Source of the DNA: a virus
DNA length: 22,712 nt
IMG/VR virus record: IMGVR_UViG_3300020204_000404
Span: 1 to 22,712 of that record
Reading direction: 5' to 3' (one strand)
Below, piece after piece: positions 1,572 through 10,748 of the stretch. A program made the position numbers and the translations under genes. The notes under the pieces are model-generated. The model worked only from the letters and a program-made list of their open reading frames with translations. It was not told the DNA's origin and did no database searches. Position 1 is the first letter of the stretch, and the number at the start of each line of letters is the position of its first letter.

Positions 1572-3452
1572 ATGAAGCATTTTACGTTAGATCAATTAGC
1601 TCAAGGCATCAAGGACAAGCATGTCGGTGCCGAGCGCGCCCGTTTGACAGAAAAGTGGAGCCGCACAGGTCTCCTCCGCGGTCTCGATGGCACACGTCGT
1701 GAGATGATGTCGCAGCTCCTCGAGAACCAGGCAGCACAGGTCCTCAAGGAGAGCAACGCTCTCTCGACCGGCGGCGGCAGTCTCGTTGGTTCAGGCCAAA
1801 TCCAAGGCTTCTCCAACATCGCCTTCCCGATCGTTCGCCGCGTGTTCGGTGGCCTCGTCGCCAACGAGCTCGTCTCCATCCAACCAATGAGCCTTCCCTC
1901 AGGTCTAATCTTCTATCTTGATTATACCTACGGCTCAGACGTCGGTAAGCCACTGGGCGAAACCGGTGAGGTCTACTCTCGTGGTACATCTCTCTACAAC
2001 AACCCAGCTGGTAAGGGAGTTCGTTCCGGCTCTCTCGCGACAGGTGGTATGTACGACCTCGTCGGTACTGGTTACTCTCGCGTCACCGGTTCAATGTCTG
2101 CGCTAAACTTCGCCGCAGGGACAGTGTACTCTGGTTCTTATAAGGGCGCCGACGCACTTACTTGGACCGACGGTGGTATCGTCGCAGCAGCAAGCGACTT
2201 CTCGGGATCCAATGCTCGTTGGTTGGACTTCGACGGTCAAGTTGAAACGGCCTTGTCACAAGGTGACCTCGACTTGTTCTTTGTTTACGTTCCTACATCT
2301 GCAATCACAGCTGTAATACCAGCTGCGGATCTTCTTGCAGTTGAACAAATCGCAATGTTCAGCGGCTATGGAGCCAATGCAACCGCATGGGGCGAGACAT
2401 ACCAAGGTGGACAAGGAGTTCTTAACCTTCGTCGCCTCAACAAGCGTGGTAACTTCGCCCCCGCCTCGGGCTTCTCTCCAGATGCATTGAATGGTACACA
2501 CGTTCAAATGGTTCTTAAGGGCGCAAACGGCCTCAGCGCACTAACATCAGGAAACGGTGCACTCTCTTGTGCTGTCGCTTCAAGCCTCTCGGTTGATTCG
2601 GCATCCGGCGCGACCGTGACCGTTCCGTCCTTCGAGTCTGACTTCGGAGCGACACCGGCACCGGCGATCCCAGAGATCGACATCAAGATCGAGTCCATCG
2701 CGATCACAGCAGAGACTCGCAAGCTCCGCGCCAAGTGGTCACCGGAACTCGCACAAGACCTCAACGCGTACCACTCAATGGACGCCGAGGTCGAGCTCAC
2801 CTCGATCCTCTCCGAGCAGATTGCTCTAGAGATCGACCGCGAGATCCTCAACGACCTTGTGACACAAGCCAACGGCGCCAACTACTACTGGTCGCGCGCT
2901 CCAGGCAAGTTCGTTAACAAGACAACCGGTGCCGCAGTCACGTTAGCTTCGTCCCTCTCTATCGGTCCGGCCTTCACCGGTACGGTCCGCGAGTGGTACG
3001 AAACGCTCATCGAGACCGTCATCGACGTCGCCAACACCATCCATCGTAAGACCCTCCGTGGCTCTGCAAACTTCCTCGTTTGCGGTCCGGACGTCGCCAC
3101 CATCCTCGAGGCCTCCGTGCTCTACAAGCCGAAGTTCTCCATGGACGGCGAAGGACAGGTTGGCTCACCGTTCACTGTCGGCGCCGAGGCAATCGGTACT
3201 CTCAGCAACCGCTTCACAGTCTACAAGGATCCTTACTTCGTCAGAAACAAGATCCTCGTCGGCTACAAGGGTGGCAGCTACCTCGAGACCGGCTACGTCT
3301 ACGCTCCGTACGTGCCACTCATCGTGACACCAACCATCTTTGCACCGGAAGATTTCACACCTCGTAAGGGCGTGATGACTCGCTACGGCAAGAAGATGGT
3401 CCGCACCGATTTCTACGGCACGGTGACGTGCTTGGACATGAACATCATCTGA
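1572..3452 (+). CDS. Major capsid protein, T4 gp23-like
   Basis: Builds the capsid shell. The 626-residue product shows gp23-family blocks. Near residues 80-118 are FPIVRRVFGGLVANELVS and QPMSLPSGLIFYLD, which match the T4 segment following the cleavage site. Residues 381-430 (ETRKLRAKWSPELAQDL, then HSMDAEVELTSILSEQIALE) match the T4 core helix region, and residues 563-610 match the T4 C-terminus. Residues 51-53 (ENQ) and an LKE at 58-60 lie where T4 gp23 is trimmed by its protease, so cleavage after Glu60 is possible. A Gly/Ser/Ala-rich stretch at about 172-368 is much longer than the corresponding part of T4 gp23 (521 aa in total) and probably forms a surface insertion domain. AGGAG at 1561-1565 with a 6-nt spacer sets the start. 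Codons are strongly C-ending, unlike the AT-ending tail genes, as expected for the most abundant virion protein. A terminator follows. Confidence 0.95.
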   Translation: MKHFTLDQLAQGIKDKHVGAERARLTEKWSRTGLLRGLDGTRREMMSQLLENQAAQVLKESNALSTGGGSLVGSGQIQGFSNIAFPIVRRVFGGLVANELVSIQPMSLPSGLIFYLDYTYGSDVGKPLGETGEVYSRGTSLYNNPAGKGVRSGSLATGGMYDLVGTGYSRVTGSMSALNFAAGTVYSGSYKGADALTWTDGGIVAAASDFSGSNARWLDFDGQVETALSQGDLDLFFVYVPTSAITAVIPAADLLAVEQIAMFSGYGANATAWGETYQGGQGVLNLRRLNKRGNFAPASGFSPDALNGTHVQMVLKGANGLSALTSGNGALSCAVASSLSVDSASGATVTVPSFESDFGATPAPAIPEIDIKIESIAITAETRKLRAKWSPELAQDLNAYHSMDAEVELTSILSEQIALEIDREILNDLVTQANGANYYWSRAPGKFVNKTTGAAVTLASSLSIGPAFTGTVREWYETLIETVIDVANTIHRKTLRGSANFLVCGPDVATILEASVLYKPKFSMDGEGQVGSPFTVGAEAIGTLSNRFTVYKDPYFVRNKILVGYKGGSYLETGYVYAPYVPLIVTPTIFAPEDFTPRKGVMTRYGKKMVRTDFYGTVTCLDMNII

Positions 3453-3478
3453 TAGTCGGAAACGACCATCTTTGATAG

Positions 3479-3512
3479 GAAAGGCCTTCGAAAGAGGGCC
3501 TTTCTTGTTTTT
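3479..3512 (+). terminator. Rho-independent terminator after capsid gene
   Basis: An 8-bp perfect stem (GAAAGGCC at 3479-3486 pairing with GGCCTTTC at 3497-3504) with a 10-nt loop is followed directly by TTGTTTTT. It begins 27 bp after the capsid stop codon. It separates abundant head mRNA from the endonuclease genes downstream. Confidence 0.9.
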
Positions 3513-3525
3513 ATAATCTTAATTT

Positions 3526-3554
3526 TTTACAAAACGCATGTTACCATGTATATT
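3526..3554 (+). promoter_or_regulatory. Sigma70-type promoter for first homing endonuclease
   Basis: TTTACA at 3526-3531 and TATATT at 3549-3554 are separated by 17 bp, each one mismatch from consensus. Predicted transcription would start about 3561, which is the ATG itself, so the mRNA would be leaderless. No Shine-Dalgarno sequence precedes the gene, which agrees with this. It lies just after the capsid terminator. Confidence 0.6.
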
Positions 3555-3560
3555 TAGATC

Positions 3561-4421
3561 ATGATCACATGCAAAGAATGCGGACATGAATGTTCGGCAC
3601 AGAATGCTTTAGGATACCACTTACGCTCTCACGGTTTGACGTACCCTGATTACGTAGTCAAACATGAATATGATGGTACTTGGCCACACTGCACCTGCGG
3701 GACAAAGCTTCCTTACAAAAAAGGAGGCTTTTCTCGTTTCTGTTCCAAGTCCTGTGCAGCTAGCGGGACCAACAATCCTATGTCAGGAAAGACAGGAGAA
3801 AAATCTCCGTTATTCGGACTAAAGAGAACCGAAGAACAATTAAAGAATTATTCTGAGGGTGCCAAGAAGCGATGGGAGATTCATGGTGATAGAATCAGAA
3901 AAATGATGAAAACTGATGCATATAAGAATATGCAATCATTGGCAAACAAAAATTCTTATGCAACAACCGATAGAGCAAAAAGAACGTCCGAATCCGTCCA
4001 CCGTTTCTGGGCCGAGTCTCCGCTCGCCCCCCTCCTCCGCGAAGAGGCATCGCAGCGCGCCATCAGGCTCCTTGCCGAGAACAAGATCGGTCCACAGGCT
4101 CCATTCAAGCGTGAAACCTTGATCAACCCGTGGACGGGCGAAGAAGAGCACATGCATTCTTCGTGGGAATCTGTCTTCTTCCAGACGTGCGTTGAGCGGA
4201 AGTATGAGGTGACCAAGAACCATGGGATCACGATTCCTTACGTTCATCCGGATGGAACAACGCGAAACTATATTCCAGATTTCTTTGGAAGAGAGGATAG
4301 AGTGTTGTACGAAGTGAAGGGTCGGCGTGACGAAGTTGATGATGCCAAGTGGAATGCTGCGCGAGATTATTGCGATCGTATGGGTTGGGGCTTCGTGATC
4401 ATGATGCCCCCAGAGTTTTAG
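3561..4421 (+). CDS. Free-standing homing endonuclease, zinc finger + NUMOD3 + PD-(D/E)XK
   Basis: A 286-aa selfish DNA endonuclease that would cut phage genomes lacking it and so spread. An N-terminal zinc finger (C4-C7-H20-H24) is followed by a second Cys cluster (C44, C46, C61, C65). A NUMOD3-type DNA-binding segment lies at about 70-105 (GTNNPMSGKTGEKSPLFG). The C-terminal nuclease has the PD-(D/E)XK pattern: SSWES with Glu203, IPDFF with Asp240, and YEVKGRR with Glu251 and Lys253. This arrangement is common in phage-borne homing endonucleases next to conserved genes, here the capsid gene. The reading frame is intact and the catalytic residues are present, so it may be active. Bases 3995-4150 are visibly more GC-rich than the first third of the gene, suggesting domain shuffling. 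The cut site cannot be told from the sequence. Confidence 0.85.
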   Translation: MITCKECGHECSAQNALGYHLRSHGLTYPDYVVKHEYDGTWPHCTCGTKLPYKKGGFSRFCSKSCAASGTNNPMSGKTGEKSPLFGLKRTEEQLKNYSEGAKKRWEIHGDRIRKMMKTDAYKNMQSLANKNSYATTDRAKRTSESVHRFWAESPLAPLLREEASQRAIRLLAENKIGPQAPFKRETLINPWTGEEEHMHSSWESVFFQTCVERKYEVTKNHGITIPYVHPDGTTRNYIPDFFGREDRVLYEVKGRRDEVDDAKWNAARDYCDRMGWGFVIMMPPEF

Positions 4422-4427
4422 AACTTA

Positions 4428-4460
4428 GTGTTACAAACACGCTCCTTGTGTTACTATATA
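4428..4460 (+). promoter_or_regulatory. Putative promoter and inverted repeat before second homing endonuclease
   Basis: GTGTT-ACA-AACAC at 4428-4440 is a perfect inverted repeat, and GTGTTAC recurs at 4448-4454 just before TATATA (4455-4460), a likely -10 box. A weak -35 (TTACAA, 4431-4436) sits 18 bp upstream, inside the inverted repeat, so a protein bound there would block the promoter. The repeat may be chance because it is short. Confidence 0.4.
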
Positions 4461-4482
4461 GTCCATACAAGGGTGTAATGAC

Positions 4483-5907
4483 ATGGACTGTAGGCTATGT
4501 GACTTTCGACATGATGATGCAAAGAAACTGACAAACCACATCAGGTCAATTCACGATCTGTCATCAGAGGATTACACTGTTGAAGTATACCACGGAGGTA
4601 AAAAACCTGTTTGCGAAGTGCGTTCATCCTCCGTCAGATATGTTTCTTTTTCTTTTAAAAGATTCTGCAAAGACCATTCCCATCTCGCTATGAAAGAAGG
4701 CGGAGCCCGAGGCGGAAAGGCCGAAGCTTGGAATAAGGGGCAAAGTAAGGATACAGATCCAAGGATAAAGCTCCAGTCTGAATCAATGACAGGTGAAGGT
4801 AACCCGTTCTATGGTCGCCGCCATACACGAGAGACCCTAGAAAAAATTAGCTTAAGTAAGATGTTGGAAACATCTACGCTAAAAGAAAGATTATTGGAGA
4901 GGCAGTCTGAGTTCACCCTCATTACTCCGTTAGAAGAATACATCTCTCGGCAAGAGCAGTACCTCAAGTTTCAGTGTAATCAATGTGGAGAGGTTCAACC
5001 AAAGACTCTACAGGCCTTTGAGAGAGGAAGTAGGTGTTATAAGTGCCACCCATTCAGCAAGTCCAATTGGGAACTAGAGGTGTTCACATTCGTTCAATCA
5101 TTAACATCTGATGTGATATCAGGCGACAAGAAGGCGATGTCTCCGAAGGAAATCGACGTGTATGTTCCTTCCAAAAAATTTGGGATAGAGTGTCATGGGT
5201 TGTACTGGCACAGCGAAGGTTCTAAACAAGGGGTTTTTGATAAGAACAAGCATCTAGAAAAATCCGTCCTTGCTGCGAAGAACGGCATAAAGTTGCTGCA
5301 GATATTTGAGGATGAATGGAGAGACAAGCGAGAGATATGCGAGTCGATGATCCGCCACCGTCTCGGCATGGATCGTTACAGGTGTAAGACCTGGTCCACA
5401 AAAGTCGTCGAATTAAACACACAAGAACAAAGGTCTTTCTTCGATTCTACACACATAGCAGGATATGTCCCGTCCAAGGTAACGTGGGGATTAAGAGACA
5501 GGAGTGGTATCGTCGTTGCTGCCTTGTCACTTCGTATTCCAAGGAACGGCAAGAAGTACGAAGGTTACCTAGAAATTGCTCGGTACAGCACGGCTCAAGC
5601 GACCTCTGTTCCTGGGGGTTTGTCTAAGTTGGTGAAACGCGCCAAAGAGTGGTGCAAAAAAAACGGATACCGTGGAATCATGACATACGTCGATAGACGT
5701 GTAGGAGAAGGGGACGGATATAAGTCTGTAGGGTTTTCTTTTCTAGGATCAACGACCGTAGATTATTGGTACACTGATAACCAGCTTCGTTACGATAGGT
5801 TTAAGTTTAGAGCAAAAAATGGTAAGTCCGAACGTCAGATTGCAATTGAGGTGAGAGTCTCAAGGATTTATGGATGTGGATCACACATGTACGTCATCAA
5901 TTTATAA
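4483..5907 (+). CDS. Hef-like homing endonuclease with NUMOD3 and C-terminal GNAT-like domain
   Basis: A second intact selfish endonuclease, 474 aa. In order: a zinc finger (C3-C6-H19-H24) related to that of the preceding gene; WNKGQ and a NUMOD3-type segment at about 82-123 (GEGNPFYGRRHTRETLEKIS); a zinc ribbon (C165, C168, C185, C188); and a PD-(D/E)XK nuclease at about 195-295 (Glu199, EIDVY with Asp225, FGIECHG with Glu236, HLEK, IFEDEW). This nuclease and what follows match the phage Hef-like family. The last third (about 300-474) is the domain usually attached to it, with a GNAT-like look (EIARYST, VPGGLSKLVKRAKEW, YVDRR). AAGGG at 4469-4473 is a weak ribosome site. Its stop is followed immediately by a TnpB remnant, so this interval has taken several insertions. 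The target is unknown. Confidence 0.85.
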   Translation: MDCRLCDFRHDDAKKLTNHIRSIHDLSSEDYTVEVYHGGKKPVCEVRSSSVRYVSFSFKRFCKDHSHLAMKEGGARGGKAEAWNKGQSKDTDPRIKLQSESMTGEGNPFYGRRHTRETLEKISLSKMLETSTLKERLLERQSEFTLITPLEEYISRQEQYLKFQCNQCGEVQPKTLQAFERGSRCYKCHPFSKSNWELEVFTFVQSLTSDVISGDKKAMSPKEIDVYVPSKKFGIECHGLYWHSEGSKQGVFDKNKHLEKSVLAAKNGIKLLQIFEDEWRDKREICESMIRHRLGMDRYRCKTWSTKVVELNTQEQRSFFDSTHIAGYVPSKVTWGLRDRSGIVVAALSLRIPRNGKKYEGYLEIARYSTAQATSVPGGLSKLVKRAKEWCKKNGYRGIMTYVDRRVGEGDGYKSVGFSFLGSTTVDYWYTDNQLRYDRFKFRAKNGKSERQIAIEVRVSRIYGCGSHMYVINL

Positions 5908-6052
5908 TTGTGAATAGAATGATCAAGACTGGCTTTGCGGCATATACTTCACAGAAGTGTTCTTTTTGCGGAAACATTTTGAGAAGTAATCGTCAAGGAG
6001 GCAAATATTCTTGCAAAAAAGGCATACGGCATGTAATATCAGAGATCGTTAG
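5908..6052 (+). pseudogene. Decayed 3' end of an IS200/IS605-type tnpB
   Basis: Between the endonuclease stop and base 6019 one frame reads GFAAYTSQKCSFCG, then NR, GGKYSCKK. This is the C-terminal zinc ribbon of TnpB nucleases (typical YTSQ-C-x2-C, NR, F/Y-x-C-x2-C). The second CxxC is broken. After CKK the family-like ending HTACNIRDR followed by TAG (6023-6052) continues in a different frame, which looks like a small deletion compared with the usual C-G-H-A-D-x-N-A-x-R-N-I. Nothing of the RuvC part is seen upstream because the preceding endonuclease gene occupies that DNA. It should be non-functional as a nuclease. A 67-aa frame starting at 5874 covers it but overlaps the endonuclease gene and is not a real gene. 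Confidence 0.6.
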
Positions 6053-6065
6053 GTCTCTAAATCAT

Positions 6066-6085
6066 CTCACAGTTTAAACTGTGAG
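6066..6085. repeat. Perfect 20-bp palindrome (CTCACAGTTTAAACTGTGAG)
   Basis: Two 10-bp half-sites with no spacer, centred on GTTTAAAC, 13 bp after the end of the TnpB remnant. IS200/IS605 elements carry subterminal palindromes and a structured omega RNA at the tnpB 3' end, so this may be a leftover of that end. It could also be an operator or a transcript hairpin. The rest of 6086-6240 shows no gene that I can support. Confidence 0.6.
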
Positions 6086-6240
6086 CAGGATGCAGTCAAT
6101 CATCCGTACGGAAACAGCGTTGTTCTTGGCGCTGAGTTCCAAGGTCATGGCCTTGTACCGTGACTATTTGACTAAAAAATGGTTATAGAAGATAAAAAGG
6201 CAGAAGCTCTTAAATCGCAAGAAAAAGAAGAAGATTGATG

Positions 6241-6246
6241 TATAAT
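6241..6246 (+). promoter_or_regulatory. Putative -10 box (TATAAT) before HNH gene
   Basis: Consensus TATAAT 7 bp upstream of the GTG start. No good -35 box is present at 16-18 bp, so support is limited to the -10 box and the lack of any ribosome site. Confidence 0.3.
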
Positions 6247-6253
6247 TGTATCC

Positions 6254-6580
6254 GTGAAGAGACGACGGATGCATGGTCAGCCTAAGTTAGAGAAAGATCG
6301 ATGCGAGATCTGTAGGTATGACCGTCCTGCGGCAATAAACATTCATCATATAATTCCGAGGTGTGATCCTCGATGCACAAATGATAACAATAATCTCGCT
6401 GTCGTTTGCCATTCTTGTCATGATTTAATTCATGAAGGAGAAATAACGATAATCGGTGTATATTCATCAACAGGCGGAAGAAAACTTATGTGGTTTAAAC
6501 AAGATGAAGAGCCGCCATTAGAACGAGAGTTTTGGTTAATAAAAGAAAATCCTCTTGTTTTAAGAAGAAAACAAAAATAA
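6254..6580 (+). CDS. Small HNH endonuclease
   Basis: A 108-aa HNH nuclease, probably a third mobile endonuclease of this interval. It shows CEIC at 17-20, the catalytic pair in IHHIIPR (His31-His32), an Asn-rich DNNNLAVVC turn and CHSCHDLIH (C52, C55, H56, H60). The two CxxC pairs would bind a structural zinc and the HH/N/H residues form the metal site, so the enzyme looks intact. Start: GTG at 6254 has no Shine-Dalgarno, but a perfect TATAAT lies at 6241-6246, implying a leaderless message; an ATG at 6269 is the alternative. No NUMOD or other DNA-binding domain is visible, which leaves open a restriction-like or packaging-related role. Its position next to two homing endonucleases favours selfish DNA. 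Confidence 0.8.
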   Translation: MKRRRMHGQPKLEKDRCEICRYDRPAAINIHHIIPRCDPRCTNDNNNLAVVCHSCHDLIHEGEITIIGVYSSTGGRKLMWFKQDEEPPLEREFWLIKENPLVLRRKQK

Positions 6581-6591
6581 TTGTTGACCAC

Positions 6592-6620
6592 TTTATATTT
6601 TTCTTTACCTGTGTTATTAT
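6592..6620 (+). promoter_or_regulatory. Putative promoter of the exported three-gene cluster
   Basis: TTTATA at 6592-6597 and TATTAT at 6615-6620 are 17 bp apart. Transcription would begin about 6627, only three bases before the ATG at 6630, and no Shine-Dalgarno sequence is present. The segment TGTGTTATTATAT (6610-6622) resembles TGTGTTACTATAT before the second homing endonuclease, so both may answer to the same polymerase or sigma factor. Confidence 0.45.
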
Positions 6621-6629
6621 ATTACCAAT

Positions 6630-8093
6630 ATGGGTAGAAGAAATAACGTTGTAATAAATGGATTGATAGTATCTCTCGCATTCGGATTAACGTTATACGG
6701 ATGTGAACGTCCTAATCCTTATAAGCTAGCAGGCGACACGTCTGCTGTTTTTAAAGATTGTCCGACTCCGAAACAATCTGCTACGGCTTCTGGCGATTCG
6801 CAAACGTCTGTTACGGTCTCAACGAACGTTTCAACAACGATATCTGGAGGTTTGACGTCGGCTTCTGTTTCACCCGGGTCGGGGCAACAACAACAAGAGA
6901 TGACAGAGCTTGATGAAAGAGAGTTAGATTATTCAGAGGCGTTGCGAACGGCAAGCATCTTAATCTTAGGGGATGTTCCAACTGTTTCTGAAATATATGA
7001 GTTGGCAGATTTACCTGCGGATATGCAGGATGAAAAATACCAAGAGTTGATCGATAAGAAGCTATCTGATCCACATTTTGCAGCTACCTTGGTCGAATTT
7101 TTTAAGTATACTTTTAAAATGGGTGGCATTTCTACTGTAGCCGGCGAGCCAAATCGTGACACCGCGCCTACTTTTGCAGCGAAGATAGTATATGAAGAAA
7201 AAGATTGGAGAAATATAATTGTCCAGCAGACTAATACATGTCCTACTTTTAATGCTACAAGCAATACCTTTATTGATGGTTCTTGTAACAATCTTCTTGC
7301 CGGGATGAATCATTCAGGAATCCTAACAGATCCAGGAGTTCAAAGTTTATACTACGGTAATCTATCATTTCGTCGTAATCGATTCTTTCATGAGACATTT
7401 TTATGTAGATCTGGAAATGAACAATCAGGTGGTGAACCGACAGATCAACCTCCTACAGCTTCTCCTTGTTCAGGAGCTGATCCAATCCCAGGATATCAAA
7501 ATAAGTGGCCTGTTAGCGAAATTGCTGGTGCTTGTAATGGTGGACGAGTAGATTTTCATGCCTATAATTCCAGCAACGTTTGCGCAAATTGCCATGCAAC
7601 ATGGAATCATCGTTCTCCTTTATTCAGCCAATTTGATTCAAAGGGAGTTTTTCAACCGTTGACACCGGTCGGAGAATATTCGGTATTTGTACCAGTCAAT
7701 GGTTCTCCAAGAGCGAAGTTATCCGATTGGCTTTGCACTGCTCCATCTTGTCCAAATGGTGGCAACAACAAACCAGCGTGGAAAAAGGTAATGAAAGTTA
7801 ACGGAGTTGAAATGCCCGCCTCCGCAGATACGATCAATGAACTTGGTCAACAGATGTCAAAGGATGATGAAGTAATCGAATGCGTTGTAAAGAGGATGTG
7901 GAATTATTCCATGGGTCGTGCAGATATAACTGAGATTGGTGGTCGTTCTTGGGTGTCCCTACCAGATCGTAAGGACAAGAATCCAGAATTGGTGACGATG
8001 TCAAAACTCGTGACGATGTTTAAAGGAAATGGATATAACCTTAAGCAGGTATTCCGTACCATCTTACTTTCCGATGATTTCGTGAGGTTCTAA
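6630..8093 (+). CDS. Cytochrome-like lipoprotein, DUF1592/DUF1588/DUF1585 type
   Basis: A 487-aa exported lipoprotein. A basic start, a hydrophobic stretch (8-23) and LYGC with Cys25 form a signal peptide II. A Ser/Thr-rich linker (about 48-90, including VSPGSGQQ) follows. Residues about 100-165 resemble the N-terminal part of planctomycete/myxobacterial DUF1592-like proteins. Residues about 228-345 resemble DUF1588: GILTDPG, RFFHETFLC, then NVCANCH at 316-322, a CxxCH heme c type motif. The last 90 residues match DUF1585: IECVVKRMWNYSMGR, then GYNLKQVFRTILLSDDF. The molecular role of these families is unknown; redox or surface roles are guesses. With one CxxCH it could bind heme, if the host matures c-type cytochromes. 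It leads a cluster with 3- and 12-bp gaps. I know of no usual phage function for this family. Confidence 0.75.
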   Translation: MGRRNNVVINGLIVSLAFGLTLYGCERPNPYKLAGDTSAVFKDCPTPKQSATASGDSQTSVTVSTNVSTTISGGLTSASVSPGSGQQQQEMTELDERELDYSEALRTASILILGDVPTVSEIYELADLPADMQDEKYQELIDKKLSDPHFAATLVEFFKYTFKMGGISTVAGEPNRDTAPTFAAKIVYEEKDWRNIIVQQTNTCPTFNATSNTFIDGSCNNLLAGMNHSGILTDPGVQSLYYGNLSFRRNRFFHETFLCRSGNEQSGGEPTDQPPTASPCSGADPIPGYQNKWPVSEIAGACNGGRVDFHAYNSSNVCANCHATWNHRSPLFSQFDSKGVFQPLTPVGEYSVFVPVNGSPRAKLSDWLCTAPSCPNGGNNKPAWKKVMKVNGVEMPASADTINELGQQMSKDDEVIECVVKRMWNYSMGRADITEIGGRSWVSLPDRKDKNPELVTMSKLVTMFKGNGYNLKQVFRTILLSDDFVRF

Positions 8094-8096
8094 ACC

Positions 8097-9134
8097 ATGC
8101 AAAAAAATATAATGAAAAAATTTGGTTGGTCTACACTCGGAATAATTTCAACATTTTTAATGTTTAATTCGTGCGGTTCTACTGCACCTGATATTGGCGA
8201 AAATTATTGTCCTGACATAGAAGACTTATTAGGACCAGCAACCGTTGTTAGCGTAGCTGCATCTACATCTTCAGCAACAACAGACGGTGGAGTAGGAGGT
8301 TCACAAGTTTCTGCTGGTTCTGGCCAGCAAATGTCAACTGGCAGCGGGATGAAAGAGCTTTCGGAATACGACATTCCTAATCAAGATGAAATTATGTCTA
8401 GATTGCATTCTTGTAGAAAATTGACTTATGTACAATTAGGAAATTTTTTAAAGGCAAGAGGTGTTGCAGTTCCAACAGGAAATCTATTAGATAACCGAAC
8501 AACGATGACGAACGTTTTTGGTCAATCGGTAACGCTTGGAAACATTTTTGGTGGTTCAGGCGCATCATGTGAAACGGCAATAACTGATGCAAACGGAACA
8601 AATGATCCTGTTTGCTCAGGAGCAGAAATTTGTTTTTGTAATCAAGACGATAAAATGAATCAGGTTAATCGTAGTTGTCTTGACGTCGGAAATAACTCAC
8701 CGGATGCAGCAGATGGATATTGCGTATCCAAACCATCTACGGCGGGATTTTTATATTTTTCAGGAAAAGATGCTTTAGGCGTTCCAAAATTGGATTCGCG
8801 TCTTGGGGAAAAAGAAGAACATTCAACAGCTTCTGCAATGAAAATGATGGATATTTTCATTCAAGCTGCCTCACAAATCGTTACAAACATATCTGATCCT
8901 AACAAAGCACCGGCTTGTACATTAAATGGTAAAAACCTTCCTATGTTTGCCAACGATGGAAGTTGCGTTGAAGAATCAGTAAGTTGCTTGATTGGATATC
9001 CTGCGACGGATGATCACATGTTGTTGTGTAATTTGCTAATTCAAAAAGCAAAATCTGGTGATCAATCAGATTTAATTAAGAAGCGTAACATTGCAGTTGC
9101 GGTGATGCTCGCCGCGGCACATTCATGTCAATGA
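8097..9134 (+). CDS. Cysteine-rich lipoprotein of unknown function
   Basis: A 345-aa product not matched to a named family. A Lys-rich start and hydrophobic run to FNSC give a lipobox-like site at Cys26, with Phe at -3 and Asn at -2, so somewhat atypical. The next region has the same plan as the preceding protein: a CP pair, a Ser/Thr/Gly-rich linker and VSAGSGQQ (71-78), followed by an acidic KELSEYD. The body holds 14 cysteines including the lipid one, with a cluster at 158-209 (CSGAEICFCNQ), suggesting a disulfide-bonded periplasmic or surface domain. The C-terminal part (CLIGYPATDDHMLLCN, then a helical end) ends in HSCQ. GAGG at 8084-8087 gives a good ribosome site, and the 3-bp gap to the gene before implies co-translation and probably a shared complex. 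Confidence 0.7.
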   Translation: MQKNIMKKFGWSTLGIISTFLMFNSCGSTAPDIGENYCPDIEDLLGPATVVSVAASTSSATTDGGVGGSQVSAGSGQQMSTGSGMKELSEYDIPNQDEIMSRLHSCRKLTYVQLGNFLKARGVAVPTGNLLDNRTTMTNVFGQSVTLGNIFGGSGASCETAITDANGTNDPVCSGAEICFCNQDDKMNQVNRSCLDVGNNSPDAADGYCVSKPSTAGFLYFSGKDALGVPKLDSRLGEKEEHSTASAMKMMDIFIQAASQIVTNISDPNKAPACTLNGKNLPMFANDGSCVEESVSCLIGYPATDDHMLLCNLLIQKAKSGDQSDLIKKRNIAVAVMLAAAHSCQ

Positions 9135-9146
9135 GGAAGAAAACAA

Positions 9147-10748
9147 ATGGCTAATTGGAAACTAAAAGAACTCCGTGATGAACGTCGTAGAACATTTCTT
9201 AAGATGTGTGGCGTTACTGCTGCAGCTATTGGTATATCTCGTACTGACTTATTAAACTTCCTTTCTGATGAAGGAGGGTATGGATTAGCTGAAGCTGCTG
9301 GCACGACTTATGGAAGATCTTTATTGGTCCCAGCGCCAAATGGAGTTCATGCATGGTTTCAAGAGTTATGGCCAGTTCCAGATGTTGCAATGAAAGCAAC
9401 TGCAAATGCTAACGTCCCAGGAATGTCTTCTAATTTTGGAGGATTCTCATCTTACCTGTATACATCTCAATATGGTTACAATCCCGTAAATGGATACCGC
9501 GGAACTTATACACAAGGCAAAGGAAATCAGCTTCCTTCTCTTCCAATAGGGGTTAAAGGCTGGGATGGTGGGGATAGATCCTTTTTTTATGGTCCTCATG
9601 CCCCATGGTTCGATCATATTCTTGGTCTTCCAAAGTATCCTGTAACTGCATATATGTCAGGAAAAGATGAAACTCACACTGAATTTCCAATTTCTCAAGT
9701 AGCTCTTTCTGGTAATTCATCTATGCAAGCAGCATTAGCATCTTTGGGCGCCGCAGGTTCTTCTTCAATTGTCCCCGTCTTAGGAATCGACCCCGTAAAA
9801 TATGGTAGAGCACCTGGCGCCCCTGAAATAGCGACTGTTCCATCGTCTGCGGGGATGATTGATTTATTTAATTCAGCCGCCAGTCAATTTACTTTATCAT
9901 CAAAAGCAGATCAAGAATTATTTGACGTGTATTACAAGGCACTAGTAGGTTTAAGAAAGTCTTCGAATAGAACGACTTGGTTACCTCAAATGCAAGTGAC
10001 TAAGAATGCAGCTCGAATCATTGGTTTAAACTTTGCTTCGCAATTAACTCCGATAAGCCAAGATCTTGCAGATTTTGGAATTCAAGAAATGATTGATAGC
10101 ATAAATTCATCTTCTTCTTACATGTCATCTGCTCAGCGTAAAGGTATTGAGGAATTTGGAAGAACTTTAATTGTTGTTGCAAAATCATTTGCATTAGGTC
10201 TATCTAAGACCGCTATTGTAGCCTTATCCCCAGGCCCAACCAGTGATACGACGTTTACAGATCCTCACGTTACATTTGATTCTCAAACGCAAATGAGTCA
10301 AGGTAGAAATACCATAAAGCATTTAGGGAAAGTTCTTGATGGATTTTACAACTACTTGTCTCAACAAGTCGATCCAGAAAGTCCTACAGAAAAACTAGAT
10401 CAAAACACAACGTTCGTTGCATACGGTGATACGCCCCATACTCCATTACAAGGTTCTACATGGCCGGACGCCACCCCGGATGCGTGTAATTGGACATATG
10501 TGATGGATCCTAAAAGAAACGTTAAGAATGGGTGGTTCGGTCATGTTTATGCAAACAAAGTTAATGGAAAAAACGCAGTTGGATTCAACCCGTTGACTGG
10601 CCTCGACGATTCGACAAAGACATCTGAACAGATGTCGTCATTTGCTTCTGTTGCAACTATTTATGCGGTTGCAAAAGGTGACAACAATAAGACTGCCGAA
10701 TATGGTGTTTCTCCAAATGTAGTTTCTGGAATGATTAACGTTAAATGA
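9147..10748 (+). CDS. Tat-exported DUF1501/DUF1552-type protein
   Basis: A 533-aa secreted protein. Residues 13-19 (RRRTFLK) form a twin-arginine signal, followed by a hydrophobic CGVTAAAIGI and a possible cut after AEA at 48-50, so it would be exported folded. Later segments recall DUF1501/DUF1552 proteins, which have an alkaline-phosphatase/sulfatase-like fold: RSLLVPAPNGVHAWFQELWP at 57-76, a C-terminal half with MSQGRNTIKHLGKVLDGFYN, and LDQNTTFVAYGDTPHTP in place of the family's GT/L-LDN-T-VVV-SE-GRTP region. The usual downstream His motifs are not obvious, so the match is distant and activity is doubtful. In bacteria these proteins are encoded beside DUF1549/DUF1588/DUF1585 proteins, exactly the partner found here. 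AGGA at 9134-9137 is the ribosome site, 12 bp after the previous gene. Confidence 0.65.
   Translation: MANWKLKELRDERRRTFLKMCGVTAAAIGISRTDLLNFLSDEGGYGLAEAAGTTYGRSLLVPAPNGVHAWFQELWPVPDVAMKATANANVPGMSSNFGGFSSYLYTSQYGYNPVNGYRGTYTQGKGNQLPSLPIGVKGWDGGDRSFFYGPHAPWFDHILGLPKYPVTAYMSGKDETHTEFPISQVALSGNSSMQAALASLGAAGSSSIVPVLGIDPVKYGRAPGAPEIATVPSSAGMIDLFNSAASQFTLSSKADQELFDVYYKALVGLRKSSNRTTWLPQMQVTKNAARIIGLNFASQLTPISQDLADFGIQEMIDSINSSSSYMSSAQRKGIEEFGRTLIVVAKSFALGLSKTAIVALSPGPTSDTTFTDPHVTFDSQTQMSQGRNTIKHLGKVLDGFYNYLSQQVDPESPTEKLDQNTTFVAYGDTPHTPLQGSTWPDATPDACNWTYVMDPKRNVKNGWFGHVYANKVNGKNAVGFNPLTGLDDSTKTSEQMSSFASVATIYAVAKGDNNKTAEYGVSPNVVSGMINVK

Follow-up and report, generated by a model that had tools for sequence, protein, structure and literature searches.

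Introduction

The omegaRNA of the Deinococcus radiodurans transposon ISDra2, as set out in the available text of PMC10097598, runs from stem 1, whose loop forms a pseudoknot with the transposon terminus, through stems 2 and 3a to a right-end hairpin that serves as stem 4; removal of stem 3b increased editing. The part of PMC8612924 accessible to us states that the guide comes from the DNA flanking the right end of the element, and the accessible part of PMC10278001 states that TnpB processes its own mRNA and supplies the criterion for a subterminal hairpin used below. Degraded relatives are also described, since according to the portion of PMC3119063 at hand core-deleted IS605 elements (PATEs, palindrome-associated mini-elements) of Haloquadratum walsbyi retain C-terminal tnpB sequence.

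Here, we describe a remnant of this kind in a 22,712-base virus record, IMGVR_UViG_3300020204_000404 (the window, by which we mean this whole stretch of DNA, and whose positions we use as coordinates). Its profile matches include a major capsid protein of T4 type and genes resembling those for a tail sheath. The original prediction, made from the sequence, had placed a TnpB zinc-ribbon remnant, a palindrome behind it and possibly a structured RNA at 5908-6180. Comparison with relatives gives an extent of about 5905 to 6172, and this segment is, with high confidence, an IS200/IS605 fossil that keeps a predicted omegaRNA scaffold, inert alone and usable only with a TnpB supplied in trans.

Results

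The remnant occupies a variable slot between two endonuclease genes

The genes on both sides of the remnant are as follows.

4483..5907, + strand: Hef-like homing endonuclease gene flanking the remnant on its left (474 aa, NUMOD3; PHROG 3339 homing endonuclease, E 1.4e-67)
6176..6238, + strand: likely C-terminal stub (KMVIEDKKAEALKSQEKEED*) of the gene entered by the element, similar to the end of the L021 slot ORF
6254..6580, + strand: HNH endonuclease gene (Pfam HNH, 22.8 bits; matched in 10 relatives), right flank

For comparison, we used the best 80 of 115 places related to the Hef protein. When 5800-6630 was searched by blastn against the loci among these, the downstream HNH gene was matched in 10 and the Hef end alone in 6 (L006, L007, L008, L010, L013 and L017). 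The interval between the Hef and HNH genes varies in length among the 10 relatives and, among the loci listed, in content too. None of these 10 has the remnant in this slot, which was found there only in the window and in G001 and G002, two other IMG/VR contigs that have the same bases as the window over 5800-6630 (831/831). The slot looks variable in these alignments, in keeping with the hot spot originally proposed. In L006-L008, identity with the window stops at 5904/5905, and the Hef gene is followed by a different small ORF and then the next large gene (among the loci listed). On the other side, 6176..6238 is likely the stub of an L021-type slot gene, to judge by a weak resemblance to the end of the L021 ORF that 90 of 3000 shuffles equalled; a search for further alleles of that gene returned L021's own contig only.

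The surroundings of the slot have features of their own. On the capsid-gene side (window 3000-4600 against L004, L003 and L020), the contigs diverge by roughly 10-30%, while from about 4600-5000 on they are nearly identical (L020 from about 3500 to 5151), a sharp mosaic border whose pattern fits gene conversion around the endonuclease genes. Directly after the major capsid gene, 3561-4421 encodes a protein with NUMOD3 and a TnsA-like N-terminal nuclease fold, a probable further mobile endonuclease. Window 6630-10748 holds three cell-type genes amid phage head and tail genes, an unusual phage cargo. The first gives weak DUF1549/DUF1585/DUF1588 (PSCyt/PSD) matches and has a lipoprotein-like start, the second (345 aa) has a similar start and the third (533 aa) a twin-arginine-like one, all start types being assigned by reading the sequence; the first two genes also lie behind the Hef gene in L006-L008.

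An intact relative identifies the remnant and its right end

ORF 5874-6077 contains YTSQKCSFCG at 5943-5972, the anticipated zinc-ribbon segment. It matches Pfam PF07282, the TnpB/Cas12f zinc-ribbon domain, at 21.5 bits (E 2.6e-4), under the family cut-off of 26.3, and PHROG transposase families at E 3.5e-4 and 5e-4. Taken by themselves, these profile matches are only suggestive of a TnpB origin. It is proved, at the level of sequence, by 6034-6172, whose nucleotides match the 3' end of a complete element.

That element lies at about 63.2-64.8 kb (locus L097) of G020 (IMGVR_UViG_3300009181_000033, 297,894 bases). Among the 34 virus records behind the best 80 of 115 Hef-related places, three have PF07282 matches, namely G001, G002 and G020, and the last also has relatives of the window's flanking homing-endonuclease genes. 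G020 carries three tnpB genes, and the right-end match lies behind the first. This closest complete relative pairs a divergent tnpA with a tnpB of 387 aa: TnpA (Y1_Tnp, PF01797, 125.9 bits) is encoded on the strand opposite to tnpB, and TnpB (NCBIfam guided_TnpB, 168.9 bits) keeps the RuvC D/E/D motifs and both Cys pairs, as seen by inspecting its translation. The same element, with an identical TnpB, is present in G035. Alignment of the window with L097 resolved the remnant into the following parts.

5902..5927, + strand: tnpB start (GTG at 5910), a probable survivor fused to the zinc-ribbon part; 21/26 identical to L097 662-687
5936..6021, + strand: TnpB zinc ribbon (YTSQ-C-x2-C ... YSC), second knuckle broken; PF07282, and 61/85 ungapped bases as in the intact tnpB (72%)
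6022..6034, + strand: frame-breaking deletion removing the second Cys pair and the RuvC-III motif (DINAAI), from alignment to L097 1640-1703
6034..6172, + strand: putative omegaRNA scaffold, consisting of the tnpB 3' end and the transposon right end; 128/139 ungapped bases as in L097 1692-1842

Over 6034-6172, identity is 92% ungapped and 85% counting one 12-base gap (E 1e-45). Since the similarity ends at TTTGAC in both sequences and the flanks beyond differ, we place the right end of the element at 6172. The window remnant shares its right end with an element that carries a Y1 (HUH) tnpA, one of the criteria for IS200/IS605, and the comparison supports the original prediction of a tnpB remnant followed by an omegaRNA and right-end region.

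No uninterrupted relative of the right flank of the G020 element was found among 16 records, and searches of GTDB species genomes with peptide patterns returned no relative of its TnpB; the 484-kb phage record LR756508.1 has nine places similar to this protein. A TnpA search gave 17 loci, two of which are the known element, and 9 of the other 15 hold more distant TnpBs. L116 contains at 3001-3240 a truncated tnpA, 74% identical to G020 TnpA residues 66-145 and followed by a hairpin. In this locus, where no tnpB was matched, the one-sided remnant is the converse of the window's. A degenerate core pattern hit four genome loci and three further viral loci, which were discarded as not TnpB by translation. 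The second tnpB of G020 (L087 1342-2448, at about 74.6-75.7 kb) has no adjacent tnpA in the stretch examined. Its right-end hairpin core, ACGGCCTTGTGCCGT, is the left-end hairpin core of the first G020 element, the two share the GLVP protein end, and the L087 element may be moved in trans by the TnpA of the first.

The nuclease gene is destroyed

The match of 5902-5927 to the L097 tnpB start is in frame with the zinc ribbon, and its score was reached by 0/5000 shuffles against the start region and 10/5000 against the whole element; the tnpB start codon seems, from this match, to survive at 5910. Reading the same bases as the left end of the element was rejected (score 18, against 27 for the tnpB start). 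About 870 bp are gone between the first tnpB codons and the zinc ribbon, including two of the three RuvC motifs, and the second knuckle is broken as anticipated, by the deletion at 6022-6034. A TnpB end in another frame had also been proposed. It exists in the 5906 frame (NIRDR*VSKSSHSLNCEQDAVNHPYGNSVVL-GAEFQGHGLVP*), where the TnpB continuation past the break, which contains a stop, matches the intact protein, but ANILAKKAYGM* in the 5908 frame lies outside that match. RuvC D/E/D motifs and a four-Cys zinc ribbon, the signature of a functional TnpB, do not stand together in one frame, and the nuclease of the window copy is, by its reading frames, dead.

The left end of the element, tnpA and most of tnpB are absent. 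There is no left-end subterminal hairpin, as Hef coding sequence runs to 5904 and tnpB-start sequence comes next. With its left end lost, the window copy counts as a remnant rather than a complete element. At the left junction stands TTTAT, a sequence found in uninterrupted relatives too, and judging from these bases the junction likely arose by a microhomology deletion. The proposed comparison with relatives put the edges of the remnant at 5904/5905 on the left, where identity ends, and at 6172 on the right. We saw no intact TnpB in the window, G001 or G002, all three contigs being fragments. Across 50,697 phage records, there was no nucleotide match to the remnant, and protein matches were weak and confined to 4 records.

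Another 3' remnant of the same tnpB family, independent of the window's, lies at 962-1166 of locus L102 in G036 (IMGVR_UViG_3300044957_001541), behind a gene that we assigned as DNA ligase by reading its ORF. It keeps the tnpB C-terminus, the RNA region and the right-end hairpin only, and its right-end terminus is damaged. Because L102 was found with patterns taken from the right end, any count of 3' remnants is biased.

The right end is predicted to fold as an omegaRNA scaffold

Folding and comparison of the window, G020 and L102 sequences gave the predicted RNA elements below.

6041..6058, + strand: 5' hairpin I; of its 7 pairs, 2 differ in both bases in G036/L102 yet still pair
6066..6085, + strand: 5' hairpin II, the palindrome CTCACAGTTTAAACTGTGAG (20 bp, perfect), imperfect (G.U) in the intact element and L102
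6088..6105, + strand: stem 1 (GGATG/CATCC) with the GTCAA pseudoknot strand 6095-6099 in its loop; invariant in the three sequences
6110..6140, + strand: stems 2 and 3a, with a 12-nt deletion of distal stem 3 at 6128/6129 relative to the intact copy
6143..6165, + strand: stem 4, the right-end hairpin (TnpA-type, subterminal), its core weakened by two changes, one giving a C-A mismatch
6168..6172, + strand: TTGAC, element end and pseudoknot 3' strand, from its pairing and from the G020 similarity, which stops here
6173..6188, + strand: 16-nt guide position in flanking DNA, by analogy with ISDra2 (accessible part of PMC8612924)

The fold of 6034-6172 reaches -48.3 kcal/mol (z -4.41), with 0/200 shuffles as stable. 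The same stretch scores z -3.66 in the intact copy and z -2.99 in L102, with 1/200 shuffles as stable in each; L102 alone prefers another fold in its middle part. In a common structure of the three sequences that includes the pseudoknot, 98.4% of cells are paired, compared with 29-41% when partners are slid, and column shuffles, a modest control with only three distinct sequences, reached the observed pairing values in 48/500 cases. The pseudoknot is a matter of sequence complementarity only, between TTGAC at 6168-6172 and GTCAA at 6095-6099 in the stem-1 loop, and a perfect 5-nt complement within about 130 nt would arise by chance roughly 1 time in 8. In L102, the right end has lost TG and the pairing is broken. 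The second G020 tnpB element has TTCAG/CTGAA as the counterpart, although its complementary 5-mer does not sit in an evident hairpin loop. Behind this gene, the model matched weakly over all 157 positions (14.9 bits), in agreement with the same plan.

The right-end hairpin of the window lies 7 nt before 6172, within the distance of about 10 nt that defines a subterminal hairpin. A structured RNA that begins in the tnpB 3' end and takes in this hairpin and the right end is what defines an omegaRNA and is predicted here, the window copy keeping a near-complete predicted scaffold. The original suggestion that the remnant could retain a structured RNA is supported by the fold (z -4.41) and its ISDra2-like plan. 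Rfam gave no match in the window at the gathering threshold and chance-like sub-threshold matches at E up to 10, among them one to the palindrome as a microRNA hairpin, which we discarded.

The palindrome at 6066-6085 is perfect over 20 bp, as first noted, and about 0.02 such palindromes would be expected in 22.7 kb. It does not stand behind tnpB, where it had been placed, but inside the former tnpB reading frame, and it is not the right-end hairpin. Its assignment to the structured RNA region holds in that it forms an extra stem 5' of the predicted omegaRNA core, roughly where the 5' region of ISDra2 is dispensable.

By analogy with ISDra2, 6173 would be the first base of the guide. A 27-base pattern detected no empty allele among viral contigs, nor was there one within two mismatches of the guide in the examined loci, one 2-mismatch match (L074) aside. 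With neither an empty allele nor a left end found, the insertion site is not fixed to the base.

Discussion

Our reading is that an IS200/IS605 transposon probably inserted into a small gene of a large tailed phage, in the interval between two homing-endonuclease genes, and that the transposon later lost its left end, tnpA and most of tnpB, which would leave a complete right end together with half of the zinc ribbon and the start of tnpB. A + strand transcript of this right end would fold into stem 1, the terminal pseudoknot and stems 2, 3a and 4. Folding, the three-sequence comparison and the ISDra2 structure suggest that a guide would be read after the scaffold, from flanking DNA at 6173. 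Because it has neither a nuclease nor a left end, the remnant alone is expected to do nothing. It would be active only with a related TnpB in trans, such as that of G020, and such use of the modelled RNA is possible.

Might the remnant do more? It could be a working non-autonomous guide, co-transcribed with the endonuclease genes and loaded into the TnpB of another element or of a co-infecting phage, so that insert-less alleles are cut (homing) or bound. The scaffold core is complete, pseudoknot included, and the part that is missing is the counterpart of stem 3b, whose removal raised ISDra2 activity (available text of PMC10097598). A related phage, G020, has a related TnpB, and the right end is more conserved relative to it (92%) than the zinc ribbon is (72%), but this conservation can date from before the death of tnpB. 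The adjacent endonuclease genes are on the same strand and a TATAAT box lies at the junction (5903-5908), although the 7 promoter matches found are about as many as chance would give (6.4). Nor does the identity of the three contigs inform on selection or constraint of the RNA, since neighbouring genes are equally, or nearly equally, invariant, and these contigs, fragments as they are, show no TnpB beyond the remnant. We consider a working guide improbable. The same low probability attaches to the broader idea that the TnpB-less omegaRNA is a parasitic or trans-acting guide, served by TnpB from related phages or hosts and cleaving or binding insert-less alleles, in which case the slot would also be defended by an RNA-only guide.

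It is still harder to see the remnant as a PATE-like mini-element, kept mobile by a TnpA that recognizes the right-end hairpin in trans. Core-deleted IS605 elements with C-terminal tnpB sequence do exist in Haloquadratum (PMC3119063, in the portion at hand), and in G020 a TnpA occurs along with a second tnpB element whose hairpin core is the same. However, PATEs are mobile and have near-terminal palindromes at both ends, whereas the window has a right end only, with tnpB-start sequence where a left-end hairpin would be; the right-end hairpin core carries two changes, one a C-A mismatch; and there is one strong copy per record, with no second in any of the 37 records. Since a dimeric regulator could bind a palindrome that is perfect over 20 bp, 6066-6085 might be a phage operator, or else a terminator, unrelated to the zinc-ribbon fragment. 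The palindrome nevertheless lines up position by position with tnpB coding sequence in the G020 element and in L102, where it is imperfect, no T-run follows it and a terminator scan omits it, which leaves this explanation very little weight. An inert fossil with a retained scaffold remains by far the best account.

If trans use is true, guide RNAs could outlive their nucleases and spread apart from them, and the window RNA and the intact G020 TnpB form a pair that allows a direct test. If there is no trans use, the remnant, as a fossil, fixes the right end of a phage-borne IS200/IS605 lineage. In the open-access literature searched, as far as its accessible text goes, we came across no account of a TnpB-free omegaRNA being used.

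Among known systems, the G020 element is the nearest, with the same tnpB start, tnpB C-terminal frame, right end and terminal TTTGAC as the window, but it has an intact tnpA and tnpB and 12 nt more in stem 3. Compared with ISDra2 by layout only and not by sequence alignment, the window has the same order of elements, a tnpB that stops about 9-10 nt short of the right end and a flanking guide; unlike ISDra2 as described in the text available, it has no TnpB, a shorter stem 1 and a distal stem 3 that is mostly lost, the 12 missing nt corresponding to the distal stem 3 that is dispensable there (PMC10097598). The remnant resembles PATEs, as far as the portion of PMC3119063 at hand describes them, in that an internal deletion spares end sequences together with some of the C-terminal tnpB region, and differs in being in a phage, without a left end and not a two-ended mobile unit. 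L102 is likewise a 3' remnant of the same family with an RNA region and right-end hairpin, but it lies behind a DNA ligase gene, with a damaged terminus and a broken pseudoknot. Taken together, the window remnant is mostly an ordinary genetic fossil of a known kind, and a clear viral case of one in which the nuclease protein is destroyed while the RNA part is nearly whole, beside two protein homing endonucleases.
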